IMG/VR virus record: IMGVR_UViG_3300005337_000025
Coordinates: 1 to 46,755 of that record
From: a virus
Strand: one strand, 5' to 3'
DNA: 46,755 bases
Shown: positions 5,090 through 35,649 of the stretch, in pieces
How the letters are laid out: the number at the start of each line of letters is the position of its first letter
How positions within the stretch are numbered: position 1 is the stretch's first letter
Notes under the pieces: generated by a model
What the model was told of the DNA's origin: nothing
Database searches by the model: none
The model's input: only the letters and a program-made list of their open reading frames with translations
Position numbers and translations under genes: made by a program

Positions 5090-5776
5090 TTACAGCCTGA
5101 TTCCGCGTCGGTACGTTCGGCTGCTTGAGTTGAGCACCTTTCGTGCCCTATTCAGGAGCGTCACGCCATCGGACTTGGCCCACACATCGTGTGTACTTCC
5201 GTCCTTATCGCGGACGATCATGTATCCGTTCGGCGCCAGCTGCAGCGGACCCGGCGCGGTTCCGCACCAGTCCACGCGCTCCTTCGAGTCGGCGCGGAAC
5301 CAGTTGGGGAACGCGAAATTCGAAACGTACTCCGGCTCCGGAAGCTTCTGCCCGAATGACGTTATCTCGATGGGGTACGTATCACCCTCCACAGGGTCAC
5401 ACGCTTCCTTTGCCACGCTCCGTCCGTCAGGCATCGGAACCCACAGATTGCACTGTGGATCAACCGCCATTTCGATGCACTCGTGCGAAAGGATCGCCGT
5501 GGTGTCACTCCGCGCCAGAACCGTGCCTCTCGGTACGCCAACGAACTCATGGTACCCGGCGGCGCCATCAACGTCCAACGTGTCGGCAACGGTCATGATT
5601 CGCGCGATGTCTGCCGCGACTGGCAGATCGTGGGGCGTAGAAAAGAACATGACGGGCATGTAGCCGCCCCAAAGCGGGGCGACGTCGCGACGCATCTGCA
5701 AGTCAACCGCCAGGCACGCGCGGTCAAGCTTCGCGTCGTCCAGCGACGACTGATTCAGGACGGCTACAAATGGCAT
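5090..5776 (-). CDS. HExxE metallopeptidase-like virion or lysis protein, 228 aa
   Basis: A 228-residue protein with a zinc-protease-like helix: LSHECIEMAVDP at residues about 96-107, in which His98, Glu99 and Glu102 form an HExxE motif. The preceding AADIARIMTVADTLDVDGAAGYHEF segment and the following DPVEGDTYPIEITSFG strand resemble a small group of phage and bacterial proteins I know only as hypothetical. Whether it is catalytic is not shown; HExxE occurs in some peptidases, but a third ligand cannot be assigned. AAGGGG precedes the ATG. It lies between a membrane protein and the lysozyme, which hints at a cell-wall or virion-associated role. Confidence 0.6.
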   Translation of the reverse strand: MPFVAVLNQSSLDDAKLDRACLAVDLQMRRDVAPLWGGYMPVMFFSTPHDLPVAADIARIMTVADTLDVDGAAGYHEFVGVPRGTVLARSDTTAILSHECIEMAVDPQCNLWVPMPDGRSVAKEACDPVEGDTYPIEITSFGQKLPEPEYVSNFAFPNWFRADSKERVDWCGTAPGPLQLAPNGYMIVRDKDGSTHDVWAKSDGVTLLNRARKVLNSSSRTYRRGIRL

Positions 5777-5788
5777 GCGCCGTGCCCC

Positions 5789-6661
5789 TTACAGAGTCCC
5801 GGCGCAGCCAGCGTCGGCGGCAAAAAACACGTTGGTCGCCACCCGTGGGAGATCCGTCGACACGCCGTGCAGGACGCCACTGCCGGTGAAATCGTAGCTA
5901 CTGGGGAAGGTACGAACCACGGCCGCTACCGTCTTCTTCCCGGTCAGGTACTCCAGCGCCCGATCGTGCATCAGCTGAATTCGATCCCCGGTGTCCTTGT
6001 CCATGCTCGCCCTGGCCTCCAGTTGCAACGACGTCCGCGAAAGAACCTCGGCAACGGCACACTGGACCGCCGCCAGACCGTCGTTGCCCGCGCGCACCGC
6101 GACGGCAGCGAGGGCCGCGTGCCAGTCGCCAGTGGTGATCAGCGCAGATGCCACGTCGTCAACCAGGTGGGCCGCCAGGTCGTGGATCGCCGGGGCACCG
6201 CAATCCACTGCCACCTGCCCTGCCTCCGTCGAGATCGGCCCCGGCGGCGTACTGCCGGTCGTCTTGCAGCCGGCGACGGTTCCCAGGAAGACGAGACACA
6301 GCAGCAGCCCCAGGCCGCGAGCGAAGGCGAACACGCCAGCCCATGCGACCACGCCCCCGGGTCCACGCAGCGACGTCGTCACGTCGTTCGCCGTCCGCAG
6401 CGCGTCCTTGACCGCCACCACGGCCTCGTCCGTCTTCACCGACACCAGGGCCTTCGCCTGTCCCTCCCGCAGCGTGTACAGAGCAACCAGCGTCGCCATC
6501 AGGTTCAACGTCTTGCCGAACGTCCCGGGAATCGGCTGGATCGCTCCGCTGACCACGCCTCCCTGGTACGCCAGCGCGAGCGCGACGAGCGCCTTGAACG
6601 GAGTTCGCAGCCGCGCAGTGATCAGGTCGATTCCATCCATGATTGCCCGCAACGTGTTCAT
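5789..6661 (-). CDS. Membrane protein with internal lipobox-like sequence, 290 aa
   Basis: A 290-residue protein with hydrophobic segments at about 23-42, 52-64 and 102-132. The last one ends LVFLGTVAGC, which resembles a lipobox but sits far inside the chain. The N-terminal 100 residues have the size and layout of a holin-like domain; the C-terminal 155 residues are helical, soluble and Ala-rich. In the lysis cluster this could be a holin, or a fused holin and spanin-like protein, but no family match is certain. A strong AAGGAGAAGG site sets the ATG. Confidence 0.55.
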   Translation of the reverse strand: MNTLRAIMDGIDLITARLRTPFKALVALALAYQGGVVSGAIQPIPGTFGKTLNLMATLVALYTLREGQAKALVSVKTDEAVVAVKDALRTANDVTTSLRGPGGVVAWAGVFAFARGLGLLLCLVFLGTVAGCKTTGSTPPGPISTEAGQVAVDCGAPAIHDLAAHLVDDVASALITTGDWHAALAAVAVRAGNDGLAAVQCAVAEVLSRTSLQLEARASMDKDTGDRIQLMHDRALEYLTGKKTVAAVVRTFPSSYDFTGSGVLHGVSTDLPRVATNVFFAADAGCAGTL

Positions 6662-6725: not shown

Positions 6726-7475
6726 TCAATCAGACAGCAAGCGCAACTGATACTTGCCTTTGCGCTCGCCGTGCAGCGGAAACGATACGTTTCTGACGCG
6801 CTGGTCCCAGCATGCCCGACACTTCCCACATTCTCCGGCGCTGTGCCCGTCCTTGCTCCTCGTGTATGACTTGCACTCGATTGACCGCTGCCCAGCAGCT
6901 GTCACTTTGCCGAGGTTCCGATTCCCATGCCCGCGGTGAATTGTCGACGTAACGAGTCCGGCGGGAACACCAGTCGCCGGGCGGTCAATGAAGTCGGCGC
7001 TCACCCTGACGCACAGATTAGACGGGAACGCGCCGTGCGCCGCCAGGTACCTGCGAACCATGTGCGGCTCGTGAGTTGGCAACCAGTGCCTGACATCGGG
7101 GGTGGCCTGGCAGACCATGACGATACGCCGGAGATGCGCCACACTCTGAATGTCGCCCGAGTCGTGCCACCTGAAGTACGGGACGGCCGGATCGACGTAC
7201 TGGCGCACAAGAACGACCATCGCCTCCACCCACCGGGGGTCTCTCAGGCCGCGCATTCGAGCCCTGTGCGCCTTTACTACCTCGTGCTTCGTCGCGTAGT
7301 AGTTCGTCCGTGCGTAGCACTGGCCGCATGCCGTTCGCGGGTCGGCGGCCAGGTCACTCCCGCGCTTACACTGGAACGCCGAAAGGCCGAACGAGCGGCC
7401 GGGCATCTTCGACGTCTGCCCCAGCTGCGCGTCCGGCCTTCCCAGTGCGATGGTGGCCGCCTCCCGAAGGTCCAT
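6726..7475 (-). CDS. GP88-like phage protein, 249 aa
   Basis: A 249-residue protein of the gp88 type first named in actinobacterial phages. Diagnostic stretches are the start TSKMPGRSFGLSAFQC, the Cys cluster CGQCYA (residues 50-55), YFRWHDSGDIQ (100-110) and ATPDVRHWLPTHE; a second Cys cluster CGKCRACW lies near the C-terminus. The conserved Cys groups and WHDSGD suggest metal or iron-sulfur binding, and a radical-SAM-like link has been suggested for such proteins, but I cannot assign a reaction. It lies in the late operon between coupled small genes and the lysis block, whereas relatives are often in early regions. Confidence 0.75.
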   Translation of the reverse strand: MDLREAATIALGRPDAQLGQTSKMPGRSFGLSAFQCKRGSDLAADPRTACGQCYARTNYYATKHEVVKAHRARMRGLRDPRWVEAMVVLVRQYVDPAVPYFRWHDSGDIQSVAHLRRIVMVCQATPDVRHWLPTHEPHMVRRYLAAHGAFPSNLCVRVSADFIDRPATGVPAGLVTSTIHRGHGNRNLGKVTAAGQRSIECKSYTRSKDGHSAGECGKCRACWDQRVRNVSFPLHGERKGKYQLRLLSD

Positions 7476-7479
7476 GCCC

Positions 7480-7836
7480 CTACAGGTCTACATCAGGAGA
7501 CAGCGGCTCGCGCGATAATTCTTCCTGCGCGCAGTTGTTGACGAAATGCTTCGACCGCGCCGCCAGCTTCTGGATGCGCTCTAGGAGTGCGGCTGCCGAG
7601 GCAAGCCAGTGGACGTAATCAGCGCGTGACAGTCCTTCAGGAGGGATCGCCAGTCCTCGACAAGTTCCCTCTGCCTCATGGAAGACGAGCGCAAGTTCGT
7701 GGAACCCGTACTTGTCGAAGTGCCCCGGCGGGCGCGGCCATGGGTACTTGGCGACGTACTCCCCCCCCGGGTCGTCTCGTTTTCCAGATCCGCCGTGCCC
7801 TCCGCCTCCACTGCCTTCGGGTCGTTCTGCATTCAC
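7480..7836 (-). CDS. Hypothetical protein, 118 aa
   Basis: A 118-residue protein with a Gly/Glu/Asp-rich disordered N-terminus (about residues 5-30) and a helical C-terminal half containing YGFHELALVFHEAEG and WLASAAALLERI. The GTG at 7836 overlaps the previous stop (GTGA); the longer in-frame extension to 8001 would overlap the neighbour by 170 bases and was rejected. No family recognised. Confidence 0.6.
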   Translation of the reverse strand: MNAERPEGSGGGGHGGSGKRDDPGGEYVAKYPWPRPPGHFDKYGFHELALVFHEAEGTCRGLAIPPEGLSRADYVHWLASAAALLERIQKLAARSKHFVNNCAQEELSREPLSPDVDL

Positions 7837-8186
7837 TTTGCCCCCGTGGTTGTCTTTCTCTTTGCGGATTTGGTGGCGCCTTGCGCTTTCAGGTCGGCGA
7901 TCTGTTTCAGCAGTTCCCGGTAATGACCGGCCTCTATAGCATCGGATGTCTGGAACCTTTTGTAAATGGGCTCTAGCTCGTGATCTATCAATGGCTGCCA
8001 AACGACGGTCTGTACCTCGTGCTTTATGTACTTACCGGCTGAGAACACCTGCGCGGAGATAGTGGCAACTGCCGTCATCACCCCCGCAATTGCCTTTACA
8101 CGTCCGCTGAGTGGACGCTGGTACCATGCCTTATGGGTCAGGACCGGGACGCCCTCTCGCATCAATCTAACTGGTGTTCGTCCCAT
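7833..8186 (-). CDS. Small membrane protein, holin candidate, 117 aa
   Basis: A 117-residue protein with a basic N-terminus and one clear membrane segment, VKAIAGVMTAVATISAQVF at about residues 30-48, followed by a helical, Lys-rich C-terminal tail likely to lie in the periplasm or cytoplasm. Size, single span and position before the lysis genes fit a class III-like holin or an inner-membrane spanin, but neither is proven. The ATG shares an A with the preceding stop (TAATG), so it is coupled to the beta-helix gene. Confidence 0.55.
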   Translation of the reverse strand: MGRTPVRLMREGVPVLTHKAWYQRPLSGRVKAIAGVMTAVATISAQVFSAGKYIKHEVQTVVWQPLIDHELEPIYKRFQTSDAIEAGHYRELLKQIADLKAQGATKSAKRKTTTGAK

Positions 8187-9832
8187 TACTGCCCTCCGAA
8201 TGCGCCCAGCGTTCCCTTGCCGCCAGTTACGGCTACCACTGACACCTGGTACGCGCCGCTGTCCACGATTCCGCCTCTGCTAGTTCCTGTAAAACTAATG
8301 GTGGCGCCGAATGTCACGCTTCCCATTCCGACCAATGGAGACGTTCCGAGTACGGCCAGGTTGTACGGCGACGTAATCGAAATATACGCCGGATCGGTGG
8401 TCTTGCTGTTGCAGTCCGCGGACCTATTCGAACACCACGTTGTCCTTGACGTGGTCGGCGTAGAACCCTCCCACGTGCCTGCGTTGTAGCAGTCGTTGTA
8501 GTCGTCTGCGTCGTAGCTGGTGGCGGGTTGGTTCAAGTTGAAGCAGATGCGCGTGCCGCTCCCCGTGAATCGAATCGCATTATTGACTACGGTATGGTGC
8601 GTGCCCTCGTTGCCCACGAAAATTCCCGTGCCGTTGTCGAGTAACACGGAGTTGTTGCGAACCCTGACCTGGTCGCTGGTGAAGTCGGCGGGGGCGGCAG
8701 TCGCCTCGTCATCTGGAACCTTGATTGCGACGTCGGTTATGTTTTGCAGGTTAACGACGACGTTGTTTTCGATTGTCGCGTTTATGCAGCTGCCGCACAC
8801 GATTGACTCGTTGCCGACGTTTACGACGGTGTTTCCTTGGATGAGGACGCCCGTGTTGCTCTCCGCCACGTCAGGATATCCAGGCGCAATCGCTATTCCC
8901 CAGCATCCCGGCGTTATCGCTCCAAGCGGTTCGCTGACCGTGTTTCCTATTACGTACAGGTTTGTAATTCCTGTTCCGTGGATAGTGAACGATGCGCCCT
9001 GGCATCCTGTCCCCGAAGTCCATGCGGCCCTGGTTAGGACGTTATTTCTGTATATGGCGCCGTCGGCCGTGTTGCGCGTTCCGCCGTAAATGTTGTGATT
9101 CAGCTGCGCCCGTGCCGACCCGTTGTTGTCAAAAGTATTCTCGCCGACAACGGTTCCGTCGTCGATGCCGAGATACCCCTGTCCGGGGCAGTCATGGACA
9201 TAATTCTGTACGAATACGAGGTTGGAGTTGTGATACGTAGGTTGATTTCCGCCGCTGTTGTCATGTCCGATCGAGACCCCCTCGATCTCGTTGTCGCACA
9301 TTTCGACGTCATTGACCTGGTTGTAGATGAAGTACGCCTCGCCGGTTGACCCATCTCCTATGATGTGCAGTCCGTTGAACACGTACCCGCCTACCGGCGT
9401 GCTCGTAGTCGACCCGTGGGACATCGAGAACGCGAACGTGGACGTGGGATCGATGATGATCGGCCTGAATCCGGCACCGCCCCACGCGGCGGTGTACGAC
9501 ATGACGTACGCCCTACTGCTGGCCGTAGATGAACTGTTTACCCACGCCGTTCCCGTCGCTGTCCAGCTTCCTCCGTTGCAGAACTCGATTCCGTCTCCTG
9601 CGGGCATGGACCCGAACAGAGACACGGCCGTTGCGAACGTCTGCTTCGCCGTTGCTGGCGTCAGCCCGTTGGCGGCGTCGCTTCCGGCTACGCAACCAGC
9701 CTGCGCCCCAGAACCGCAGGCGCAGAAATAGTGAACCGTCCCGGTCGGCGCGGTGTGCGGGCACACGGCGCCAGCGGCGCGCGACGTGATGACGAGCGCC
9801 ACGACGATCGCAATGCGCGCCAGCTGCCTCAC
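8186..9832 (-). CDS. Exported right-handed beta-helix protein, 548 aa
   Basis: A 548-residue protein with a Sec signal peptide (VRQLARIAIVVALVITSRAAGA, cleavage near AGA-VC) followed by a parallel beta-helix. After a Cys-rich cap comes GSDAANGLTPATAKQTF, the usual opening of secreted beta-helix proteins, then many Asn-rich rungs (NNVL, ENNVVV, VRNNSVLLDN) and a terminal IVDSGAYQV motif typical of bacterial beta-helix ends. This fold suits polysaccharide binding or cleavage. The GTG at 9832 overlaps the preceding stop (GTGA). A Sec signal is unexpected for a virion spike, which assembles in the cytoplasm, so it may instead be secreted by the infected cell or recently taken from a bacterial gene. 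Confidence 0.75.
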   Translation of the reverse strand: MRQLARIAIVVALVITSRAAGAVCPHTAPTGTVHYFCACGSGAQAGCVAGSDAANGLTPATAKQTFATAVSLFGSMPAGDGIEFCNGGSWTATGTAWVNSSSTASSRAYVMSYTAAWGGAGFRPIIIDPTSTFAFSMSHGSTTSTPVGGYVFNGLHIIGDGSTGEAYFIYNQVNDVEMCDNEIEGVSIGHDNSGGNQPTYHNSNLVFVQNYVHDCPGQGYLGIDDGTVVGENTFDNNGSARAQLNHNIYGGTRNTADGAIYRNNVLTRAAWTSGTGCQGASFTIHGTGITNLYVIGNTVSEPLGAITPGCWGIAIAPGYPDVAESNTGVLIQGNTVVNVGNESIVCGSCINATIENNVVVNLQNITDVAIKVPDDEATAAPADFTSDQVRVRNNSVLLDNGTGIFVGNEGTHHTVVNNAIRFTGSGTRICFNLNQPATSYDADDYNDCYNAGTWEGSTPTTSRTTWCSNRSADCNSKTTDPAYISITSPYNLAVLGTSPLVGMGSVTFGATISFTGTSRGGIVDSGAYQVSVVAVTGGKGTLGAFGGQ

Positions 9833-10116
9833 TGGCAAAGCTCCGGGTACCTCCGGCAGTGGGCGTCGCGAGCCGGATCGTGCTCGCTCCCGAACCACTG
9901 CCGGGCATGGTGCCCAGGCGCCCCCCCGGCGCCAAGACTCGACAGCCGACGCCACGGTCCACGGCGGCCTCCGGTCTCCCACATCCCCTCTCGCCAGTGA
10001 GGATCTGACGTATCGCGACGGCTCGCCATGATGGGGGACCTGGTCGTTGACATGGCCGCCATGAACAGGCCCACCATCCCGGCACCGATCACGGCCGCTC
10101 CTACAAAATTCTTCAC
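9829..10116 (-). CDS. Small membrane-anchored protein, 95 aa
   Basis: A 95-residue protein beginning MKNFVGAAVIGAGMVGLFMAAM, a single hydrophobic segment serving as membrane anchor or signal sequence, followed by a basic, Gly/Arg/Trp-rich tail with His residues. It is joined by an ATGA overlap to the exported 244-residue protein upstream and by GTGA to the beta-helix gene downstream. No family recognised. The coupling suggests it works with the exported proteins on either side. Confidence 0.6.
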   Translation of the reverse strand: MKNFVGAAVIGAGMVGLFMAAMSTTRSPIMASRRDTSDPHWREGMWETGGRRGPWRRLSSLGAGGAPGHHARQWFGSEHDPARDAHCRRYPELCQ

Positions 10117-10847
10117 GGGCTCCCTCCGTAAAACATCGCGTTGAATGTCGGTCCTGCTCCGCTCGACTCGTCGACTGCCAATCCGAACGTCATGTGCCCG
10201 CCGAAGTCAGAACTCGTGTACGTGGCTGCCTGTGTCCCGGTTGCAGTCACACGCTTCCACTCCCACGATCCAGTAGCCGGCGCGGTGGTTACGATCGTAA
10301 AGCCACTGCCACCTACGGTCGGAGCGTCGCCTGTGTCGTTGATTGCCCATCCGATTAGCAACGCTGGCTGCGCCGTGCTGGTGAAGTTACCACTGCTCAA
10401 CGCGGAGCCACTGCCGGCTGACTGAACGGCTCCAGCGTGCCCGTCAATAGCACCGGTCGCCGCTCCGGTTATCTCTACCGCGCTTAGGACTGGGAAGTTT
10501 GCCGCTGTTCCGAACGTGACCGTAATGGTCACGGAACCTGATGCTGAATTGGTCTTAGCGAATGTACCGCCGCTGCTCGTGAACGACGCATCATTGAGCA
10601 CGTCCAGTTGCGTGTATGCGCCGTTGACATTGTCTGCAACCGAAAGCGTCGACGTGATGCCAGCAGACAACACGCCGACGACGATCGTGCTGCCAGTCGA
10701 CACCGTCAGCGACGCCGTCAGTGTCGATGACCCAGGAGCGAACGTCCCTCCAGTCGTGACAGGAGTGCCGAACGCAACAGTAGCTAGCGCCGGAGTCGAC
10801 GCGGAGACTGCGATCAGGAAGGAGAGAAGTCTTACTACGTGTCGCAT
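10113..10847 (-). CDS. Exported Thr/Ser/Gly-rich beta-sandwich protein, 244 aa
   Basis: A 244-residue protein with a Sec signal peptide (MRHVVRLLSFLIAVSASTPALA, a clean Ala-x-Ala site at residue 20-22). The mature part is rich in Thr, Ser, Gly and Ala and predicted all-beta, of a type common in phage and bacterial surface proteins; it contains SVADNVNGAYTQLDV, reminiscent of modules with the pattern D-x-x-G-N-x-Y. No enzyme motif is seen. It could be a carbohydrate-binding or adhesin-like domain. It is upstream in the same coupled cassette as the small membrane protein and the exported beta-helix. Confidence 0.65.
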   Translation of the reverse strand: MRHVVRLLSFLIAVSASTPALATVAFGTPVTTGGTFAPGSSTLTASLTVSTGSTIVVGVLSAGITSTLSVADNVNGAYTQLDVLNDASFTSSGGTFAKTNSASGSVTITVTFGTAANFPVLSAVEITGAATGAIDGHAGAVQSAGSGSALSSGNFTSTAQPALLIGWAINDTGDAPTVGGSGFTIVTTAPATGSWEWKRVTATGTQAATYTSSDFGGHMTFGLAVDESSGAGPTFNAMFYGGSP

Positions 10848-10856
10848 GCGTGTTTC

Positions 10857-12344
10857 CTAGTTGGACGTACCGGCGGCGCAGTACAGGTTCGTGCCCTTGG
10901 CCTTGCACGTGATGATATCCAGCGCGGAGGCGGCCGTGCTCAGAGTCGGAGCCGATCCTGCCGTCCCAACCGGACCGACCCAGTGCGTATTAGGACACCA
11001 CGACCCGATCAGTCGCGATCCGGTTCCGTCCTGATGAACCCATATCGTTAACCCGTTGCTGTCGCCGGACGGCATCGTGCATGTGGACGTCCCAGTCACG
11101 CTTGACGTCAGAGTAATGTCGCAATTAACGGACGCCGTAAAATCGCACAGAGCAACGTTTGCTCCGCCTTTGTTTGTCGTGGTCGTGCTGGCGAGCATGT
11201 ACCCCTTTGCTCCAGTTATCGCACCGCTGATAGCTCCGCCCGTCAGTGGCAAATACACGCCCGCCCCTGACAATTGTCCCCAGATTACGGAACCATCATT
11301 GAACAGCGTGATCACATCGCACAGGTTTGCCCCTGTGCTCAGGGTCGGTGGCGTCGACGACGACGCAGTATCCCTCCATGTGACACCGGAGAACCACCCA
11401 GAAATCAGCCGCGATCCGGTTCCGTCCTGGCATATTTCCAGGGTGTAATACCCTGGCAAGTCTGGCAGGGTACACGACGATGACGTTACAGGGCCCGTAA
11501 GCGTATCTAGATTGATCTTCTTTCCAGTTGCGTTGCTGAAGTCGCACAGGACCTGGCTGGCGCCTGTCTTGTTTCCATTGTTTAAGACGACGAATCCCTG
11601 ATTCGTGATCCCCTTCTGGGGATGGGTTGCCATATCGACGGTGCCGCCGTATGTGCTCGTCCCGTTGAACGTCCACCCGGACACGGTTGCTCCGCTCGCT
11701 AGCGGTACGACGCCGGTTCCTGTTTCGTCGTTGAGTTTTCCGGCGAGCACGGAGGACGCGAACGTGCCGATGTCTGACATCGCGCCACTGGTGGCCACTG
11801 CGGCGAGCCCTGACACGGCGCTTGACGCTATCGCGATCGTCGTGGACGTGCATACCGTCCCTAGTCCATGACTCTCGAACGTCACGACGCCAACGTGAGA
11901 GGCATCGCCGCAGGAGCCAACGGCGATGCCGGAGGCCGCCAGGCTGATGGTCGGCGTGGAACCTCCGCTCGACTGTACCGGCGCCGTTGCCCCGACGGAC
12001 GACACCCCGCCGCCAGATGCACCGAGCATGGCGTTTACCTGAGAGGGCGTCAGATCGACCTCGTTCCCCGAGGCGCCGCCGTTGTTGCCCTTGATGGTCA
12101 GGCCAGGCGCCTGCGCCAACATCGAGTTCGTGATGGCGTTCGAGTTGACGACCCAACTCGTCCCGGCTCCGCTGACCGTGATACTTCCCTTGTTACCGTC
12201 GGTGACTCCGGTACCTGACCCGCCGCCAGGAAGAGGCGTGTAGGAGCCCATCCGGCGAGACGCCGGAGCCGGAGCCGGCTTCTTTCCGCAGCCTGCCGCG
12301 AGCGCGAGCGCGACGACTGCGGCGATAATCCTCCCCCGCAGCAT
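10857..12344 (-). CDS. Tail-fibre-like protein with lipoprotein signal, 495 aa
   Basis: A 495-residue protein whose N-terminus is a lipoprotein signal (hydrophobic core, then ALAAGC, with Cys19 as lipid site) and a PAPAPA linker. The next region is typical of tail fibres: NAITNSMLAQ, then IKGNNGGASGNEVDLTPSQVNAMLG, and further on LPLTGGAISGAITG. The C-terminal third has two homologous modules of about 95 residues, each with a CDF start, QDGTGSRLI and a PTLST turn. The ATG at 12344 shares its A with the preceding TGA (TGATG). A fibre with a lipobox is unusual: either it stays in the host envelope or the hydrophobic N-terminus serves a virion-assembly role. Confidence 0.7.
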   Translation of the reverse strand: MLRGRIIAAVVALALAAGCGKKPAPAPASRRMGSYTPLPGGGSGTGVTDGNKGSITVSGAGTSWVVNSNAITNSMLAQAPGLTIKGNNGGASGNEVDLTPSQVNAMLGASGGGVSSVGATAPVQSSGGSTPTISLAASGIAVGSCGDASHVGVVTFESHGLGTVCTSTTIAIASSAVSGLAAVATSGAMSDIGTFASSVLAGKLNDETGTGVVPLASGATVSGWTFNGTSTYGGTVDMATHPQKGITNQGFVVLNNGNKTGASQVLCDFSNATGKKINLDTLTGPVTSSSCTLPDLPGYYTLEICQDGTGSRLISGWFSGVTWRDTASSSTPPTLSTGANLCDVITLFNDGSVIWGQLSGAGVYLPLTGGAISGAITGAKGYMLASTTTTNKGGANVALCDFTASVNCDITLTSSVTGTSTCTMPSGDSNGLTIWVHQDGTGSRLIGSWCPNTHWVGPVGTAGSAPTLSTAASALDIITCKAKGTNLYCAAGTSN

Positions 12345-12718
12345 CACGACTGGGCCGCCCGCTGCTTTTCGGTCATGTGCTGCGTCGGCTTCCAGACCGT
12401 CTGATTGGTGCCGCCGTTGGTCCACACGACGCGGAGGAACGGGACGCCCTCGACGGCCACGTCCACCGGACCATCGACCACCCCGGCGCCTGGCGCCCCG
12501 ATGGCATACGACTGGAATACCTTGAACCCGGTGACGCCGTCGTCGCTCTTGAGGATCTTCAGCGTGCCGGCCTGGTCATGGTCCAGCATCACTTCGTACC
12601 TCGTGAGCAAGAACGTGTCGAGGCGCGACCCGAGAAACGCCGTGTACGAGTCGAATAGAACCGTGTCGCCGCTCCCCGTCGGGAGAACCAGCGCCGCAGC
12701 CGTATTACCGATGTCCAT
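12344..12718 (-). CDS. Putative virion protein, 124 aa
   Basis: A 124-residue beta-rich protein (LFDSYTAFLGSRLDTFLL, VEGVPFLRVVWTNGG) with the character of small tail or fibre-associated proteins: alternating strands, no signal peptide, no enzyme motif. It is immediately upstream of the lipidated tail-fibre-like protein, sharing a TGATG junction, and may connect fibres to the particle or act as a chaperone. Family not identified. Its start overlaps the end of the preceding large gene by 14 bases. Confidence 0.6.
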   Translation of the reverse strand: MDIGNTAAALVLPTGSGDTVLFDSYTAFLGSRLDTFLLTRYEVMLDHDQAGTLKILKSDDGVTGFKVFQSYAIGAPGAGVVDGPVDVAVEGVPFLRVVWTNGGTNQTVWKPTQHMTEKQRAAQS

Positions 12719-14096
12719 CTTTGTCCCTTTCTTCTGCCTGCATGAGCATCATTTGAATCTCCGGAGACAGCAGTCCCAACGGAGACTCAACCCCAGAACT
12801 GTACCCGAGTCCCGTTGCCGGCTTGACGATACGTTCCATTCCAGCGCCAGCGTTGTGCATCAACGTTTTCAGGATACTGCTTTGCGCTCCACCCGTGAAC
12901 ACAGGGTCGTATCGCAACGCGCCCTCTGCGTTGCGCGCGGCGAGCCTGTCTAGCCAGTGCGAGTATTCAGGCCGCAAGTGCATGTCCATCGTCAGGGACG
13001 AATTCTCGCTCCCCGGACGTCCGTACGATGCGAGTCGACCACGCGCAGCCTCGGCCTGGCCGGGCATACCTTCCGTCGGCCCCCCGGTGCCTCCGCCCAT
13101 CGCGCTCATTCGCTCCGACGCGTCCGGGAGGTGCCTTCCCCCTGTCCGCCGCAGTTCCGAAAACGAGGGGACCGCGATGTCCTGCCGGGCCGCCTCGGCC
13201 AGCTGCATCGTTCCTTCCTCGCCCGGCGCCAGGGCGCGGCCTTCCGCGTCGAAGAACCCCCCCGCCGCCGGCCGCCGGAACCCCGGCCGGCCGCCAACCG
13301 CCTCGATGCGGTCAACGGCCTGGCCGATGTCACCGCCCGTGCGCGCTCGAACGGGCGCGCCGTTCGAAGGCCCGGCGCCGGTCCTCGCGACCGCCCCCAG
13401 CAGCGCCGCCGCAGGCAAGTCCTCTGGCTTGGCTCCCCCGACCTCCGCCGCGCTCGCCCCCTCCGCCCCGCCGATAACTGACGTCCTGGCAGCCGACCCG
13501 AGCCGACCAAAGTCCATCAGGCGGTACAGCAGCGGGACATCCGCCACCAGACCGCCCACGCCGGCCCCTGCGATGCCCGAGACGATCTGTTGGGCTCCCG
13601 GGTCGTCCAGGTTGACCATGCCCTCCTGGCGGTCAACGGCGCGCCTGTGGCCCTCCATGCCCGCCAGGTTCCGCCTGGCGGGCGCCGTGTCGTCGTCAGC
13701 GTAGCCAACCGGAGGCTTTCCGTTCGTCGCCTCCTGCTCCGCGGCATGCATGACCGTCCCCGGTTTCTCTCCGCTCGCCTCCGCGATGCCGGCTGACAGC
13801 AGCCGCTCCCTCTCCGGGGTTGGCAGTTCGCTAACATCGTCGACTCTGCCCCGCCCTCCCACGTCGAACGCCGGCAGTGCCGCGCTAGTCGGCCTGCCCC
13901 CCTCGAATGGCCGCTTCTCCTCTGGCGCCGGTTGGAATAGTTCGTCGCCCCTGCGAAGTCCGCCTCCGCGTGGGTCAACGCGCTCGCCAGTTGGCGTGGC
14001 CCCACCGGCCTTCCGCTTCGCGACTGCCGTCCGGATCTCCTCGTCGGACAGCCCGGCTTCTACCGCCTCGTCAATTAGATCCTTGAGCGGTTTCAC
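12705..14096 (-). CDS. Putative internal virion protein, 463 aa
   Basis: A 463-residue protein with a helical N-terminus (KPLKDLIDEAVEAGLSDEEIRTAV, resembling a short SHOCT/UBA-like helix pair), a long Gly/Ala/Pro/Arg-rich low-complexity middle with one Gly-rich hydrophobic stretch (IVSGIAGAGVGGLVADV, about 165-181), and an ordered C-terminus with a His/Tyr-containing block. It occupies the position of the ejection/internal protein genes in podoviruses, next to two other long Ala-rich proteins. Role is inferred from composition and position. ATGA junction with the preceding gene. Confidence 0.6.
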   Translation of the reverse strand: MKPLKDLIDEAVEAGLSDEEIRTAVAKRKAGGATPTGERVDPRGGGLRRGDELFQPAPEEKRPFEGGRPTSAALPAFDVGGRGRVDDVSELPTPERERLLSAGIAEASGEKPGTVMHAAEQEATNGKPPVGYADDDTAPARRNLAGMEGHRRAVDRQEGMVNLDDPGAQQIVSGIAGAGVGGLVADVPLLYRLMDFGRLGSAARTSVIGGAEGASAAEVGGAKPEDLPAAALLGAVARTGAGPSNGAPVRARTGGDIGQAVDRIEAVGGRPGFRRPAAGGFFDAEGRALAPGEEGTMQLAEAARQDIAVPSFSELRRTGGRHLPDASERMSAMGGGTGGPTEGMPGQAEAARGRLASYGRPGSENSSLTMDMHLRPEYSHWLDRLAARNAEGALRYDPVFTGGAQSSILKTLMHNAGAGMERIVKPATGLGYSSGVESPLGLLSPEIQMMLMQAEERDKDGHR

Positions 14097-16045
14097 TGGC
14101 TCTCACCGGATAGTTCCTTCAGCAGCCTTGCCTTGCGCTGCCCGGCGGTCTCCCCTCCACCGGACGCCGCAGGCTTCTTGGCCGGTGCAGCAGGCGCAGC
14201 CGGCGCCGCGGGCCGCGCGGATTGAACCGGAGATCGCGCCTCGTCCGGCACGTAGTAGTTGATCACGCCGTCTATGTAGTCCGGTCCCAACTCATCTGAC
14301 CACGGCAGCCGAGGATCCTTCAGTTTCGTTGCCTCGGCGTTGAACTTTGAAATGCGTTCCCTGGCGCTCTTTGCGCCAAAGCGCAGCGCGTCCGCTAGCA
14401 CCTGTTGTTCACCGTCTGACAACGCGCGCCCATCTACGTACCTGCCAACGATGCCCTTCAGCCTCTCAAGCCCGCCGGCTCGTGCTGACATTTGCTCGAC
14501 GTCTCGATTCGACAGGCTTTGGCCGCCGCCGCCGCTGACCTCTTTCGCAAGTTCGTAGGCTGCCGACGTCTGCAACAGGCCGCTGGGAGAAGAGGCTGCC
14601 TCGATCGCGCTCGCGTTTTTCGACAGTCCCTTGACGTCCTTTGGTAGGTCGAATCGATCGGCCAGTTTTGACACGCGTTGCTCGAAGTCGTTGCGCTTGC
14701 GCTCCACCAGGTTTCCCTGTCCGGTCCCCCCGGACCCGGGTGCGAACCACGGGTGATTGTTGTGCTCCTTTTGAACGTCGACATTATTGCGCCAGGTGCC
14801 AACGTCATGCATGCGACCAAGCTCCGCCTTGTCGGACGCGTCGCCAGCCTTCGTCAACTCCGCAATGGCCTTGCCGACGGGGAGCGCGCCGGTCTGAACC
14901 GCCGAGTACAATTCTCCATATCGGTCAAGCTTGTTCTGCGCGGCCATGACGATGACAGGATCGCCGACCGCCTTGGCCCGAGCCAGGTCACCTTGCAGTG
15001 ACTGGCCGACAGTCGCAAAGTCCTCGGCGTCCTTCTTTCCGGCGCTGTATCGCACGTCATTCGGCGTGGTCTCGACCCCGCCGATCCGAATGCGCGGGTT
15101 CTCCGCGTTCCTGCGTGCCGCCGCTTCCTGGTCATTGGCCGACGCGAATCGCTCGCGCTCCGCCTGTGCCTCATCGACGTACCTGCTGTCAGGCTGTGGC
15201 GGTTTCGTTTCGTCGAAGGACACCTTGCCGTCTGACCCCGTCAACTGCGTATCGCTTGTCCACTTCGGCGCATCAGGAGTGGCATACCTCGACTCGGCTG
15301 AAAACGATTGGTGGTACGGCGTCTTGTACGTGTCGGGATAGTGCATCTCGCCATCGGTCGCGTTTCGTTGCGTGCTATCTCCTCCCTTGGCAGCGATGTC
15401 CTTCCAGTACCCACGCATGTCGTAGTCCGACATTTTGTCGTCGGGATTGAACGGCGCCTTGCTATCTGCGACCCATTTGCGGAACTGCGCCTCTTCGTCT
15501 GGAGTCAGCGGGGTCTGGTACCCGCCCGCGTCGGCTTTCTTGGCGAACGGAGCATTGCGATCGAAATTGGCGCGAAGTAGCGAGAGTCGGCCTCGCTCTT
15601 TGCCTGCCTCCGCAGCGATCTCCGGGGTCTCCCGCGGACCTTCCTCGACCTGTGGCGGTAGTCGCTCGAACAGGCCTCCCTGCTGAACATCACCCGTGCG
15701 AGGATCGACCACGCCGAACTGCTCCGACAACGCCTGCGCACTCACCATGTCACCGCGCGCCACGGCGGCACGGATGGCGGCCGTGGTCTCGGCGCGCTTC
15801 TGCGTGTTGTGCAACGTCGCCTCGCCGACCTGCCGGCGCTCCTGCAAGTCGAGGCGGCGTTCCTGCTCGTCGTGCTGCTGCTGGTCGCGCGCCTCTTTCC
15901 GAGCCTCCGTCTCCCGCTGAAGCGCCAGATCCTTATCGTGCTCCGTCGAACGATTGCGGGCATCCCGGTACGCCGCGGACGCCTCGACCAACGGGTCTAG
16001 CGCCCCCTCGAATGGGGAGCGCCGTAGCATGGTGAAATCGATCAT
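14093..16045 (-). CDS. Internal virion protein with DYDxRGYW motif, 650 aa
   Basis: A 650-residue protein. Residues 30-100 form a long charged coiled-coil (Glu/Gln/Arg rich). Residues 205-280 carry a motif found in many phage internal virion proteins: DYDMRGYWKD, then HYPDTYKTPYHQSFS, then SRYATPDAPKW and KVSFDET. The C-terminal part is helical with a Pro/Ala-rich stretch near residue 610. The start was set at the ATG at 16045, after AAGGGG, because the open frame further upstream overlaps the previous gene entirely. It is likely part of the ejected protein set or the tail-core. Confidence 0.75.
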   Translation of the reverse strand: MIDFTMLRRSPFEGALDPLVEASAAYRDARNRSTEHDKDLALQRETEARKEARDQQQHDEQERRLDLQERRQVGEATLHNTQKRAETTAAIRAAVARGDMVSAQALSEQFGVVDPRTGDVQQGGLFERLPPQVEEGPRETPEIAAEAGKERGRLSLLRANFDRNAPFAKKADAGGYQTPLTPDEEAQFRKWVADSKAPFNPDDKMSDYDMRGYWKDIAAKGGDSTQRNATDGEMHYPDTYKTPYHQSFSAESRYATPDAPKWTSDTQLTGSDGKVSFDETKPPQPDSRYVDEAQAERERFASANDQEAAARRNAENPRIRIGGVETTPNDVRYSAGKKDAEDFATVGQSLQGDLARAKAVGDPVIVMAAQNKLDRYGELYSAVQTGALPVGKAIAELTKAGDASDKAELGRMHDVGTWRNNVDVQKEHNNHPWFAPGSGGTGQGNLVERKRNDFEQRVSKLADRFDLPKDVKGLSKNASAIEAASSPSGLLQTSAAYELAKEVSGGGGQSLSNRDVEQMSARAGGLERLKGIVGRYVDGRALSDGEQQVLADALRFGAKSARERISKFNAEATKLKDPRLPWSDELGPDYIDGVINYYVPDEARSPVQSARPAAPAAPAAPAKKPAASGGGETAGQRKARLLKELSGESQ

Positions 16046-16061
16046 GCCCCTTGGGTCCCCT

Positions 16062-17615
16062 CTACTTGTGCGGAAGCAGGTTGGTCGCGATGCTCCCGGC
16101 CTTACCGAGAGACGACATGATATCCGACAATTCCTGAAGGCTGACGCCGTACTTGTCCGCCTCTGCCTGTAGCCACGTATCGTCCAGTTGATTGACGGAC
16201 GACATGTCACCGTAGATCTTGCTTGCCAGTTCTGACTCCTGCTGGCTGAGTCCGGACACGGACGTAAGCGCATCCTCCAGGCGCCCCTGCCCCGTCGCCT
16301 GAAGATCCTTTTCCAGGCCCGCCTGCTCGTTAAACCTGCCCATCCGCGAAGAGTCAGACTCTCCGGCCAGGTTGAATAGGTCGTTAATGTTCCTCTCCGT
16401 CGTGGCGTCCTTGTCGTTCGCGAGCGACCGACTATCGTTCCACCTGTTCTCCTCCGACTTGTCGGCGTCGCTTGCAGCGCCTTCGCCAGCATTGAACCGA
16501 CTGAGGCTGGACGAGTCAGCATTGGCAGCCGCGTTGATACGTGCGTTCTCTCTTGCCATGTCGGCAGAGTCTGACGACGACGCCAGATCTGACAATTGGC
16601 TGATGCGATGCTCGCCCATCGTCTGGTCATCTGCCGCCAGGCCAAACGCGTCCTTTATTCTGCTCTCGTGCGCAGAATCGTTGCCGGCAGCTTCGCCAAA
16701 CAATGCGTTCATCCGGGCCAGCTTCGCGGCGTCTGCCTGCGGAGCCAGGTTGACCCACTGCTGCGCCTGCTGACCGTGCAGGTTCGCTTCGATATCGCTC
16801 TCCTGCTGTCCAGCTAGCCCGCTATTGAATCCTCCTCGCGCTGCGCTCGCGCGCTGCGCGCCTTCAATTGCGCGCTTCTCTGCGTAGTCGTAATACGGGT
16901 CCAGTTGGCCGATACCGGACTCGTACAACTTCTCCGTGTACCCAGGACCGGACAGATCCTTTCCGTGCTGCGCGTACGTGTTCTCGTACGCTCCGGGGGC
17001 ATTGAACGCGTCGCCCATTTCATCGAACAGTTTCTCGTACGAACCCTCTCCGCTAAGACTACCGGACTGGGAATCGAACACGCCACGGCTCGCAGTCGGC
17101 CCGGTCGGCAGTTCACCGAACAGCGTCTCCGCGGCACTCGGGCCAGTGAGATCTCCGCCGTGCTGGCTGTACCAGTCTGACAGCTGACCTGATCCGATGG
17201 GATCAATGTCGTTGATTGACGGGTTTTTCAGCGCATCTGCCGCTCCGCCGTGAAACATGGTCTCTACGTCGGTCGGGGTATCCATCTGGCCGACGTTGTT
17301 CTTGATCCAGTTCTCGTACGCACCTGGATCGCTTAACAATCCAGACGTCGGCACGTACGGGTTCGTCGTCGGTGGCGGCTGCGCCGTGGCAGGGGCAGGG
17401 GCCGGGGCCGGGGCCGGGGCCTTCGGAGTGGCCGCCGGAGGAGTTACCGCGGGCAGGGCGGTGGGGTTGTTCGTCGCCTGCGCGACTGCGCTGGGATTTG
17501 TATAGTCTGGCCCAGGATCGGTTGCGTTTAGACCGATCGTGGACAGAGGAATGACCTGACCAGGTTTTCCCGTGGTCGGATCATTGATTACGAGCGGCTT
17601 TGCGATGCCGCCCAT
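16062..17615 (-). CDS. Putative internal virion / ejection protein, 517 aa
   Basis: A 517-residue protein with a PAPAPAPAPA linker (about residues 66-76), then several imperfect repeats of the pattern GxYExLFxE/DLSGPGxYE (about residues 90-230), then a long Asp/Ser/Asn-rich helical region with repeated heptad-like blocks (DSSxxxRxN, about 300-430). A predominantly helical, low-complexity protein of this kind next to the DYDxRGYW protein is typical of podovirus ejection proteins. No enzyme motif. The ATG shares its A with the preceding stop (TAATG). Confidence 0.6.
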   Translation of the reverse strand: MGGIAKPLVINDPTTGKPGQVIPLSTIGLNATDPGPDYTNPSAVAQATNNPTALPAVTPPAATPKAPAPAPAPAPATAQPPPTTNPYVPTSGLLSDPGAYENWIKNNVGQMDTPTDVETMFHGGAADALKNPSINDIDPIGSGQLSDWYSQHGGDLTGPSAAETLFGELPTGPTASRGVFDSQSGSLSGEGSYEKLFDEMGDAFNAPGAYENTYAQHGKDLSGPGYTEKLYESGIGQLDPYYDYAEKRAIEGAQRASAARGGFNSGLAGQQESDIEANLHGQQAQQWVNLAPQADAAKLARMNALFGEAAGNDSAHESRIKDAFGLAADDQTMGEHRISQLSDLASSSDSADMARENARINAAANADSSSLSRFNAGEGAASDADKSEENRWNDSRSLANDKDATTERNINDLFNLAGESDSSRMGRFNEQAGLEKDLQATGQGRLEDALTSVSGLSQQESELASKIYGDMSSVNQLDDTWLQAEADKYGVSLQELSDIMSSLGKAGSIATNLLPHK

Positions 17616-17984: not shown

Positions 17985-19406
17985 TCAGTTACTCAGGATT
18001 GTAAAGTCCTCCTCGACGCCTGCCAAGGTAAATTGCCCGCCCTCGAACATAATGCGCCACTGGCGCTTCCTGTACGATCCGAGGCTCCTCGCTATCAACA
18101 CCGGCTCTGGGTCGTCGGGCTTACCTATCTCGAACTCAATCGGCTCGCAGAATTCTCCCAGATCGTCACGGTACGACAACAGAAGCTTTGATGGCGTGGT
18201 CCCGGCGATGGCGGTTCTCACTGTGATTCGCAGGCCGTTGCACTTCTTCAGCAGCGTTGTTGAGTGACTAACGAACGCGCTGGTAGCCATGACTACAATC
18301 GGTTGGCCAAGGTCATCAGTGGCTGCCGGGTCGAGGACGGCTATGCGGCCGTCTGTCAGTCCTACGAGCCGAAGGTTTCCCTTTTCCTCCCACGTGAACG
18401 CTGACATGAATGGCATCGCCGCGAGGCTCGCCAACTCCTGATCGTACCCCCTCCACTCTGACCACGTCTTCGTGGACATTTCGTATGCAAATGTCCTCGA
18501 CACAGACGGAAACGTAAGCACGCCGTAATCGTACGTATCAACATGTGCTCGCATGCCCCAGCACGTCGACACATCAGATATCCTGGCAATTTCTTTGCCT
18601 ACCGCGGGCCAACTCGGAAATGAATATGATCGGCCGTTAGATAGGACCACTCGATTCTTGCTGTCGAGACCCATGAACTGCTCGTCCATTTCGATATACG
18701 AGTGCGCAGGCCCCCAGCCGAACTGCATCGTACGCGACGACGACACCACGACTGACGGGTCCGGCGCCAGCATCTGGACCGTCTGCGTACCGGCTGCCAC
18801 CAGTTCGTTAGCGTTCTCGTACAGCCCGACAACAGGATCTGGTTTCGTTTCTGCCTCTGCGTAGTTCAGTCCTGTCTGCCAGGTCTCCGCACCCGTGTCA
18901 CCGATGTTTGACCAGTAGATTAGCCCCGACGGATCGTTGGCGTTTCCGAACAGGCGCTGCGCGAGAGACACCATGTGCGTCATGGCGGGCGGGTTTCCGC
19001 CGAGGCGCGCCGACAGTCCGCTCCCCTCCCATTTCTGTGGTTTTCCGCCGCCGACAATAAGAACCCGCGATCGAGTAGGAACGATCACGGGACGAAGAAC
19101 TCCATCCAGCATCGTGGCGTTGTCGGCGGGGTCCGACAGGGCAACCACGTTGCCAGGCGCAAGCCATACCCAGATGCGACGGTCGGCGGTCACGTAGATC
19201 AGGCGGCCGTTCCACGACCCCATTGCGACAACCGGAGATGCCCATGGGACTGTCGAAGGGAAGTCTGACCACGCGGATATGCCGGGCCGGGGCACGAGCG
19301 CCCCAGCCCGGTCGGTCATCCCGTTCACTTGCACGGGCATGGCTCCGGCCAACTCCTCAGAAGAGGAGATCTGGCCGCCAGCCATCTTGATTGCGCCCGT
19401 GCTCAT
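17985..19406 (-). CDS. Tail hub / packaged-DNA stabilisation protein, P22 gp10-like, 473 aa
   Basis: A 473-residue protein resembling the P22 gp10 (packaged DNA stabilisation / tail hub) type. Visible family-like blocks are GRLIYVTADRRIWVW (about 65-80), LAQRLFGNANDPSGLIYWSN, VLSNGRSYSFPSW, and YDYGVLTFPSVSRTFAYEMSTKTWSEW, which look like successive blades of a beta-propeller closing the portal channel. The start is the ATG at 19406, three bases after the previous stop; an in-frame extension upstream would read the 42-bp repeats of the previous gene in a second frame and is rejected. It lies directly in line with the gp4-like gene, as in P22. Confidence 0.75.
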   Translation of the reverse strand: MSTGAIKMAGGQISSSEELAGAMPVQVNGMTDRAGALVPRPGISAWSDFPSTVPWASPVVAMGSWNGRLIYVTADRRIWVWLAPGNVVALSDPADNATMLDGVLRPVIVPTRSRVLIVGGGKPQKWEGSGLSARLGGNPPAMTHMVSLAQRLFGNANDPSGLIYWSNIGDTGAETWQTGLNYAEAETKPDPVVGLYENANELVAAGTQTVQMLAPDPSVVVSSSRTMQFGWGPAHSYIEMDEQFMGLDSKNRVVLSNGRSYSFPSWPAVGKEIARISDVSTCWGMRAHVDTYDYGVLTFPSVSRTFAYEMSTKTWSEWRGYDQELASLAAMPFMSAFTWEEKGNLRLVGLTDGRIAVLDPAATDDLGQPIVVMATSAFVSHSTTLLKKCNGLRITVRTAIAGTTPSKLLLSYRDDLGEFCEPIEFEIGKPDDPEPVLIARSLGSYRKRQWRIMFEGGQFTLAGVEEDFTILSN

Positions 19407-19410
19407 GGCT

Positions 19411-19830
19411 TCAGCCGGCGGCCTGCTGCTGCCCCTCGCCGGTCGGCTTGTCGCTCCCCTGCGCCTGCTGCTGCCCATCGCCGGTCGGCTTGTCGCTCCC
19501 CTGCGCCTGCTGCTGCCCCTCGCCGGACGGCTTGTCGCCACCCTGGCCCCCCGCCTGCTCCTGGCTGGACGCCCTGACCACCGGCCGCTCCGGGTCCTGC
19601 CTCGTGTCTTCCGGGGGGTCCGGCAAATCGTCGATGGTCACGTTGACCACGCTGCCGAGCGTGAACTTCTCGGCGTACTCCGCATCCACGTACAACGTGA
19701 ACTCGCCCTGCGGTCGCCGAGACCAGTCGGTGTTGTCACGCGAGCCGCGCGACGGGGCCATCTCGACCCGGCTCCGGCCGTCATCGCGATTCGCCACCTC
19801 GACCACCATGAACTTCGCATTCACCTTCAT
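19411..19830 (-). CDS. Virion-associated protein with C-terminal tandem repeats, 139 aa
   Basis: A 139-residue protein with an ordered N-terminal domain of about 80 residues (beta-rich, NAKFMVVEVANRDDG, EFTLYVDAEYAEKFTLG) and a disordered C-terminus made of three 14-residue repeats of the type GSDKPTGDGQQQAQ. AGGAGT before the ATG at 19830 fixes the start. The N-terminal domain may form a small ring or adaptor; the Gln/Gly/Asp tail is a flexible linker. It lies between the tailspike and the tail-hub gene. Confidence 0.65.
   Translation of the reverse strand: MKVNAKFMVVEVANRDDGRSRVEMAPSRGSRDNTDWSRRPQGEFTLYVDAEYAEKFTLGSVVNVTIDDLPDPPEDTRQDPERPVVRASSQEQAGGQGGDKPSGEGQQQAQGSDKPTGDGQQQAQGSDKPTGEGQQQAAG
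19422..19547. repeat. Three 42-bp tandem repeats
   Basis: Three consecutive 42-bp units begin at 19422, 19464 and 19506; the first two are nearly identical and the third diverges at its end. Each encodes 14 residues of the Gln/Gly-rich tail of the minus-strand gene. The unit length is a multiple of three, so copy number can change without breaking the frame. There are no spacers, so this is not a CRISPR array. Confidence 0.85.
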
Positions 19831-19856: not shown

Positions 19857-21317
19857 TTAGCCGACGACCGACGACCGGCCGGCGCACTCGTAGAATAAGC
19901 CGCTCTGCGGGTTTTGCATGAAGGTCAAACCGATTCCGCGCCCACTGGCCGGGGCCGGTGCGCCGAGCACCGTGTCCAGGTGGTACGCTGCGGCGTCAAA
20001 CGTCCACGTCGTTGCGCCAGCACTCGCGTTGATCAGCATGAACGACACGATCTGTCCGGGGCGCTTGGTCGGGAACCCCTCGATCGTTACGACTCCTCCG
20101 TTGTTCAGCTGCTTTATCGTCATGCCACGGCTGTACACATCGTCCGGAGGCGTAACGGTCCTATTTCCCGCAGCCTCGACGTATGCGCTTCCGATAACGC
20201 GATCGTCGCCGAGAAATTCTCCGAACACATCGGTGACGCCAGTCTGCACTGACAGACTGTCGCACTGGTCAATCTTCAGGCGAAGAGAACCAGAAGGAAT
20301 GACAATCGTTGACGCAATCAACGATGTCACGTCAAACAACGTGCAATCCGCCATCGGCACATAGAACGAGTAATGCCCAGAAAGAGGGTTCATTGCTATT
20401 CTTACGTGTTCGAAGTTGGTATTTGTCACCGCGCCAGCCGCGATTATTCCGTCGGCAAAATATTGGTCAATGGCCACGTTCCTTATCAACACGCCGTCCG
20501 CGGTGCCCGCGAACGAAATCGCAGTAGCAAGTGGCGTTCCCGGGATACCTGTCGTCAGGCTCATGTCGCTCAGGTCGATGTTAGAGCACCCGTCCGGGAA
20601 CACGATCAGGTTCTCCGCCAGGTTGAACCCCTGCAAACTGGTCAAATGCCTTCCGGCGCCTTTCAGGCTCATGTTCGAGCGTGGTATTACCTGCTGAATC
20701 CTATACTTCCCTGGCGGCAGATATACGGTCGCGCCGACTCCACTGGCGTAATCAACGGCGTCCTGTAGCTGCACGGTATCGTCGTCGAGTCCGTTGCCCT
20801 TCACGCCGAAGCGCTTGGCGTTGACGAACACGTCATCAAGTTCTGACGCCACCGTTCTGCCGTACTGTACTTTGGCGCCGCGTCCAACGTACATGCCGTC
20901 GGTGCCGATTGCGCCTCCGATTGACGACGCGATTGCGTTCAAAGCCTTCAGCAAGAACGTCCTGCCGCCGGCAAGAACAGAGTCGCCGCTGACACCGGAG
21001 AACCGTGGCGATATCACCTCCACTAGGCCGGCCGATACACACGCGTCGTCTGCGTACGCGTCCACGGGCGCTCCAAGTGAGTCATAAATACTGACCCGAC
21101 ACGGCTCGTTGACGAACACCGCCAGCTTTCCGGCATCGTCGAGGCGATACGAATCTCCCTCTAGAGGCAACGGCTTTTTTGCATCGCGGTCAGAGTATCC
21201 TACTACTGGCGACTGGGTTGCTCCGATGCGCGTCAGTCTGACGAACCCTCCAGCATTTACTTCTCCTCCTGCTTTGCGCGACCCGCTGATTGCCAGCGGC
21301 GCAATGATACTTGCCAT
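19857..21317 (-). CDS. Tailspike with pectate-lyase-like beta-helix, 486 aa
   Basis: A 486-residue spike-like protein. The first 130 residues are a beta-rich particle-binding or trimerisation region; residues 163-206 match the opening of the pectate lyase superfamily 3 beta-helix in phage spikes: FVNAKRFGVKGNG, LDDDTVQLQDAVDYA, ATVYLPPGKYRI. The beta-helix continues to about residue 350, followed by a C-terminal beta-domain. Such proteins bind and often cleave host surface polysaccharide. A strong AAGGAA site precedes the ATG. Active-site acids cannot be assigned by eye. Confidence 0.8.
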   Translation of the reverse strand: MASIIAPLAISGSRKAGGEVNAGGFVRLTRIGATQSPVVGYSDRDAKKPLPLEGDSYRLDDAGKLAVFVNEPCRVSIYDSLGAPVDAYADDACVSAGLVEVISPRFSGVSGDSVLAGGRTFLLKALNAIASSIGGAIGTDGMYVGRGAKVQYGRTVASELDDVFVNAKRFGVKGNGLDDDTVQLQDAVDYASGVGATVYLPPGKYRIQQVIPRSNMSLKGAGRHLTSLQGFNLAENLIVFPDGCSNIDLSDMSLTTGIPGTPLATAISFAGTADGVLIRNVAIDQYFADGIIAAGAVTNTNFEHVRIAMNPLSGHYSFYVPMADCTLFDVTSLIASTIVIPSGSLRLKIDQCDSLSVQTGVTDVFGEFLGDDRVIGSAYVEAAGNRTVTPPDDVYSRGMTIKQLNNGGVVTIEGFPTKRPGQIVSFMLINASAGATTWTFDAAAYHLDTVLGAPAPASGRGIGLTFMQNPQSGLFYECAGRSSVVG

Positions 21318-30645: not shown

Positions 30646-30865
30646 TGATGATTGTCTCCCTTGGGTCTCCCTTGATGATTGCGAGTGCGGCTTCCAGGCC
30701 CCTTGTCACTCCCGCGCAGAACCGCACCTTTGCCACGGTGCCTCCGCGAGCGGCGGACAGCGTCTTGCTACGCGCCTGCTCCAACTCCGCCAGGAGGCGG
30801 CGCACCACTGCCTCCGTCTGCGGGTCCTCGTTCCATTCCGCTCGGGAATCCGATACCGATGCCAT
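30593..30865 (-). CDS. Small helical protein, 90 aa
   Basis: A 90-residue helical protein (EAVVRRLLAELEQARSKTLSAA, then VTRGLEAALAIIKG) with a Lys/Arg-rich tail. GGAGG lies just before the ATG at 30865. It overlaps the 3' end of the portal gene by 98 bases and the start of the GroES-like gene by 53, unusually long overlaps for this genome; a later GTG start in frame would shorten the first overlap. Family not recognised. Confidence 0.55.
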   Translation of the reverse strand: MASVSDSRAEWNEDPQTEAVVRRLLAELEQARSKTLSAARGGTVAKVRFCAGVTRGLEAALAIIKGDPRETIINEDSTRKRKAKGKGTEG

Positions 30866-34699: not shown

Positions 34700-34700
34700 T

Positions 34701-35030
34701 CTACCGCCGGAACATAGCTCGCCGCTCTCGCCTTGACGCGCGCGTTTGCTTCCCGTACGTGGCAACTGACATCAAGAACGCCGCCGCCGGAAGCTGAGTG
34801 CGCCATGACCTGCCCGCGTTAGCAAGTTCGTCGATTTTGTCGCAGTCGATGAGATGAATCTCGCGTCTGCCGTGACACATCAGCGTGGCTTGAAGGAGAT
34901 TGCCAGAGTCGACTTCGTCGATTATAACGTGCTCAACTGGCCCCCCGCACGTGCGACACACTGGCTTGTCGCGGCTCAGTATGTCAGCCACCACCCTGCT
35001 TCGTCCATATTGCTTGGTTCTGGTTATCAT
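34701..35030 (-). CDS. Small CxxC protein, 109 aa
   Basis: A 109-residue protein with one CxxC knuckle (CRTCGGPVEHVIIDEV, about residues 25-40) and further Cys/His (LMCHGRREIHLIDC), suggesting a small zinc site. The C-terminus is basic (RRERRAMFRR). It sits immediately upstream of the terminase. Possible roles include DNA-binding helper of packaging. The ATG at 35030 shares an ATGA overlap with the preceding gene; the longer frame from 35069 is not favoured. Confidence 0.6.
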   Translation of the reverse strand: MITRTKQYGRSRVVADILSRDKPVCRTCGGPVEHVIIDEVDSGNLLQATLMCHGRREIHLIDCDKIDELANAGRSWRTQLPAAAFLMSVATYGKQTRASRRERRAMFRR

Positions 35031-35479: not shown

Positions 35480-35649
35480 AGTACCACCGCCAGCACGAAA
35501 CAAACCACGACGAACGCCGCGAACACTGCCGGATGCAACAACGCCGACAGGACGAGAACTGCGGCGACCGCCGCATACACAAGAATTGCCGGAGACACAC
35601 CAGGCTTGACCGCCGGCCTCCGGTTACTATCCCGAATCGTCCTCACCAC
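35476..35649 (-). CDS. Small two-span membrane protein, about 57 aa
   Basis: A small protein with two adjacent hydrophobic segments (AILVYAAVAAVLVLSALL and AVFAAFVVVCFVLAVVL) and a short basic N-terminus. The GTG at 35649 (or 35646) follows AGGGGTGGG and gives 56-57 residues; an in-frame start at 35703 would overlap the previous gene by 77 bases. Possible holin-like or membrane-associated accessory protein, although its location next to packaging genes makes a lysis role uncertain. Confidence 0.5.
   Translation of the reverse strand: MVRTIRDSNRRPAVKPGVSPAILVYAAVAAVLVLSALLHPAVFAAFVVVCFVLAVVL

Follow-up and report, generated by a model that had tools for sequence, protein, structure and literature searches.

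Phage Proteins Predicted to Use Host Export Routes

In phage T5, the gene for the lipoprotein Llp is located beside that of the receptor-binding protein pb5 (PMC9586334). Llp and Cor are small lipoproteins that follow the host lipoprotein pathway to the envelope, where their target, an outer-membrane transporter, is bound from the periplasmic side (PMC9586334). Xanthomonas phage PBR31 encodes gp40, an SGNH esterase that carries an N-terminal signal peptide and is similar to tail-associated hydrolases (PMC10975493).

The locus described here consists of four consecutive, coupled minus-strand genes (A, B, C and D), running from position 12344 down to 8186. It resembles the Llp/Cor systems in that a phage lipoprotein, in this case the candidate lipoprotein A, is encoded beside receptor-binding or tail genes and would reach the envelope through the host lipoprotein pathway. 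It differs in that A is 495 amino acids long, carries phage fibre domains, and is encoded together with a membrane protein and two proteins predicted to be secreted. No lipoprotein of the Llp/Cor type matching A was found in 50,697 phage records. The gp40 gene is a single enzyme gene in a lysis region (PMC10975493), whereas A–D are coupled to one another and no enzyme was recognised among the four products. Signal peptides in genes of Porphyromonas gingivalis phages are likewise a case of phage genes adapted to host secretion, but these have been reported as genes of unknown function and not as fibre-type genes (PMC10367356). No description of fibre-type proteins with export signals was found in the literature searched.

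Organization of the Locus

The window, meaning the whole stretch of DNA that was analysed, is an uncultured-phage record of 46,755 bases with a G+C content of 61%; no terminal repeats were found within it. Genes A–D come after the last conserved gene of the virion block, which encodes a 124-aa protein, and lie on the minus strand (Table 1). Gene A starts at ATG 12344, in a TGATG overlap with this upstream gene, and B starts at ATG 10847, 9 bases past the stop of A. Gene C starts at GTG 10116 and gene D at GTG 9832, both in GTGA overlaps, with GGAGGG and GGAG upstream, respectively. All four open reading frames and the junctions claimed in the initial annotation are present as described, and a further coupling had been overlooked: the stop of D overlaps the start of a 117-aa gene (TAATG). 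The product of this gene may be part of the A–D module or of lysis. The tailspike of the phage is a separate gene that has no leader by the calibrated rule described below.

Other features were noted on the minus strand. The protein encoded at 6726-7475 is a clear match to Pfam GP88, phage gene product 88 (E 8e-25). The 290-aa ORF at 5789-6661 is hydrophobic in its N-terminal part and contains an internal signal of the lipoprotein type (FARGLGLLLCLVFLGTVAGC, followed by KTTGS); it may include a second, in-frame lipoprotein gene or encode a lysis protein. The 228-aa ORF at 5090-5776 contains a HECIE motif like a metalloprotease site and has no family match. At 14093-16645, the N-terminus of an 850-aa ORF is overlong; a relative can be aligned only from residue ~520, and the true start is probably near DFTMLRRSPF.

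Table 1. Positions of the genes and predicted leaders discussed in the text (in the window unless another locus is named).
Feature	Position	Strand	Remarks
Terminase	33083-34765	minus
Portal-type protein	30768-33086	minus
Tailspike	19857-21317	minus	pectate-lyase-type domain
Head-closure protein	17985-19541	minus
Conserved 124-aa virion-region gene	12344-12718	minus	homologue in G001; upstream edge of variable slot
Gene A	10857-12344	minus	495 aa; lipoprotein-type leader, phage fibre shaft, two C-terminal domain copies
Gene A leader	12288-12344	minus	residues 1-19; ends in candidate lipidated Cys19 (ALAAGC)
Gene B	10113-10847	minus	244 aa; Sec leader and beta protein
Gene B signal peptide	10782-10847	minus	22 aa, predicted; absent from L009 homologue
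Gene C	9829-10116	minus	95 aa; N-terminal membrane segment
Gene D	8186-9832	minus	548 aa; Sec leader and probable right-handed beta-helix
Gene D signal peptide	9767-9832	minus	22 aa, predicted; cut between TSRAAGA and V
117-aa protein	7833-8186	minus	one central hydrophobic segment; TAATG coupling to D
GDSL esterase in slot of syntenic phage	L007, 1101-2240	minus	no leader

Predicted Export Signals

Leaders were called by a rule that combines a positive n-region, a hydrophobic core and a cleavage motif. When applied to 50 kb of E. coli K-12, with classes assigned from gene names and background knowledge, this rule flagged 13 of 15 exported-class genes and 2 of 21 soluble cytoplasmic-class genes. 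Over the whole window, 41 of 1204 start codons were positive, including those proposed for all four genes. Outside this run, the rule flagged one marginal first start (38555-38890) among the ~56 genes of the window, along with a small number of starts further downstream within 5789-6661 and 35627-36142. In the phages HMO-2011, Lebethron and LS06-2018-MD07, six of the 163 genes were flagged, none of them a fibre gene. By our own arithmetic, four flagged genes among 56 would be consecutive in approximately 1 in 7000 draws. The leaders of A–D exceed chance expectation.

The predicted leaders of A, B and D show the n-h-c organisation of bacterial signals, and their cleavage sites are of the AxA or Cys type. 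At the predicted cleavage points, MLRGRIIAAVVALALAAGC is followed by GKKPAPAP in A, MRHVVRLLSFLIAVSASTPALA by TVAFGTP in B and MRQLARIAIVVALVITSRAAGA by VCPHT in D. Codon statistics favour the leaders of A and D as coding; that of B lies in the best of its three frames, with a negative score over only 22 codons. A longer start for D, at 9982, was rejected on codon use. The initial annotation had considered that better starts might remove the hydrophobic segments, and codon statistics support the starts used for A and D. It had also assigned a lipobox to A. The leader and Cys19 are indeed there, but A-A-G-C lies outside the strict motif [LVI][ASTVI][GAS]C (PMC11893012) because Ala occupies position -3. 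On these sequence features, export of the A–D products is strongly suggested.

Domains of the Four Proteins

Gene A matches fibres in loci L002-L004. Its similarity to the unexported fibres of L002 and L015 begins at approximately residue 40, after the leader and linker that make up its first ~39 residues; these two fibres have other N-termini with no leader. The phage fibre shaft motif of A, TIKGNNGG, and a repeat of the GSYGSAS...NTTIAIA type are shared with the cytoplasmic fibres of L002, L004 and L015. In A, this repeat reads GSCGDAS...VCTSTTIAIA, with Cys in place of Tyr and Ala. Unlike A, the three fibres lack a leader and are nearly free of cysteine.

No match for A–D was obtained in PHROGs or NCBIfam. 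Pfam returned nothing above cut-off for the four proteins, nothing at all for A and C, and one sub-threshold match each for B and D. That of D is to Beta_helix PF13229 (E 5e-5; 23.4 bits, below the 25.9 cut-off), and a right-handed beta-helix is probable. The AF2 model of D, made without an alignment, was of too low quality to use (pLDDT 33.5). The first half of C is coding by codon use and the second half is ambiguous. The initial annotation had treated all four proteins as fibre-like. The fibre motifs of A bear this out for that protein, but the description is overstated for the run, since C is a small membrane protein whose extent is uncertain, and the match of D is sub-threshold.

The most telling comparative evidence for a predicted export signal comes from gene B. 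A homologue in the phage contig L009 (IMGVR_UViG_3300025949_000513), located immediately downstream of genes for terminase, portal and small structural-type proteins, is 61% identical over B residues 24-229. It starts VAIAFGTPSTGGGVFAPG (V-AIAFGTP) where B has ALA and then, past the predicted cut, TVAFGTPVTTGGTFAPG (ALA, then TVAFGTP). An in-frame TAA is found three codons before this start, and thus no leader is possible there. As the homologue begins at the predicted cleavage site of B, B is a phage protein to which a signal peptide is joined at the domain boundary; the order in which the two states arose is not implied. The AF2 model of B with one relative was poor (pLDDT 52.8), and its viral matches in Foldseek, to Ig-like phage proteins and to minor tail proteins of mycobacteriophages, support the fold class only. 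The view that the coupled run encodes exported or lipidated fibre-type proteins, put forward in the initial annotation, draws support from the predicted leaders, the junctions and the signal-free relatives. The infected-cell envelope, one of the alternatives raised there, is likewise supported as the likely destination.

Cysteine Content and the Virion Alternative

Proteins A and D contain 13 and 15 cysteines, respectively. Together these amount to 28 of 1043 residues, whereas the remaining proteins of the virion region have 66 in 7410 (Fisher p 5e-6). Some cytoplasmic-type proteins of the window also reach ~2%. The fibre homologues of A have 0, 1 and 2 cysteines, the first of them ending at its locus edge. 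The enrichment fits an oxidising compartment and hence export. It is not decisive, because the structural proteins of phage Milano contain 2.1% cysteine and are heavily disulphide-bonded without being exported (PMC10811340); cysteine content as proof of export was rejected on this counterexample.

Such cysteine-rich virion proteins are compatible with another reading, in which the proteins are virion fibres and use their hydrophobic N-termini as particle anchors or in assembly or ejection. The position in the virion operon would agree with it, as would the unexported proteins that fill the slot in a syntenic relative. Three of the leaders, however, have the n-h-c layout with AxA or Cys sites, the relatives of A and B have no leader, and a hydrophobic start is expected to direct a protein to the membrane. 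A virion role is considered unlikely.

A Variable Slot Closing the Virion Operon

Alignment searches with the terminase and head-closure protein found only one related syntenic phage, IMGVR_UViG_3300010371_000083. Its gene order is kept down to the 124-aa gene and is then followed by genes for a GDSL esterase and a protein of 154 aa, both leaderless by inspection. The slot is thus variable. The same four-gene order, which the initial annotation had suggested seeking in related genomes, was not found in viral and genome contigs searched with A, B or D or in the phage collection, nor with the A repeat alignment as query. A scan with the fibre-motif pattern returned five contigs, three of which were fibres already identified in this analysis. 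In a tblastn search of the phage collection with A, the sole hit was to Cellulophaga phage phi14:2 and fell on the fibre motif. As no second phage with the set was found, the module is known from one genome.

Possible Functions of the Putatively Exported Module

It is proposed, tentatively and by analogy with T5 Llp, that A–D form an accessory exported module which most likely masks surface receptors or glycans. The module would close the virion operon, and its position inside that operon suggests that the proteins are made late. A would be lipidated and held in the envelope, while B and D would be released to the periplasm or beyond; the final destination would depend on the host and hence on its envelope type. 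Once exported, the proteins could block receptors or glycans at the surface by occupying or covering them. This would keep sister phages from re-infecting the cell and progeny off the debris, an outcome that T5 Llp achieves through a different mechanism. Masking is preferred because envelope lipoproteins are known beside receptor-binding genes and because A carries fibre-type domains. A and D have no BLASTP similarity to the tailspike of the phage, and comparing profiles of the A repeats and of the C-terminal part of the tailspike revealed no kinship. A receptor specificity shared with the phage thus gains no support from these comparisons.

The main rival, close behind receptor masking and nearly as good an account, is that the proteins act in lysis or in breakdown of the envelope or matrix. 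Exported carbohydrate-binding or carbohydrate-degrading proteins, with D as a beta-helix lyase and B as a binding domain, would loosen the envelope or capsule at lysis or ahead of it. The genes downstream look envelope- or lysis-like, given the hydrophobic segment of the 117-aa protein and the internal lipoprotein-type signal in 5789-6661. The slot of the syntenic phage contains a GDSL esterase, and the signal-bearing esterase of PBR31 has been assigned to lysis (PMC10975493). However, the family libraries recognised no catalytic family in A, B or D, and the esterase of the syntenic phage has no leader at its inspected N-terminus. A cannot be a one-protein spanin either, as its C-terminus (...DIITCKAKGTNLYCAAGTSN) has no membrane segment by inspection. 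Lysis or depolymerisation is rated as rather doubtful.

The products could also be released decoys, modifiers of the biofilm or matrix, or cargo acquired by chance and kept without selection. The open frames, the predicted soluble and secreted state of B and D, and the few relatives found are in keeping with this. The coding signal is clean overall and the coupling tight, which argues against junk, and there is no specific pointer to a matrix. These possibilities are judged improbable.

Receptor masking remains the preferred function, and a broader idea concerns the origin of such proteins. Fibre- or tail-type proteins may have been turned into envelope proteins by the addition of lipoprotein and Sec signals, so that the phage's own adhesive domains would be displayed as a coordinated module on the dying host and control adsorption. 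This is possible, with considerable doubt. If it is true, adhesins of the virion can be re-used by a phage in the cell envelope, and the two forms of B, one carrying a signal and one lacking it, offer a simple system in which such re-use could be tested. The case also cautions that a fibre annotation alone does not place a protein in the virion.
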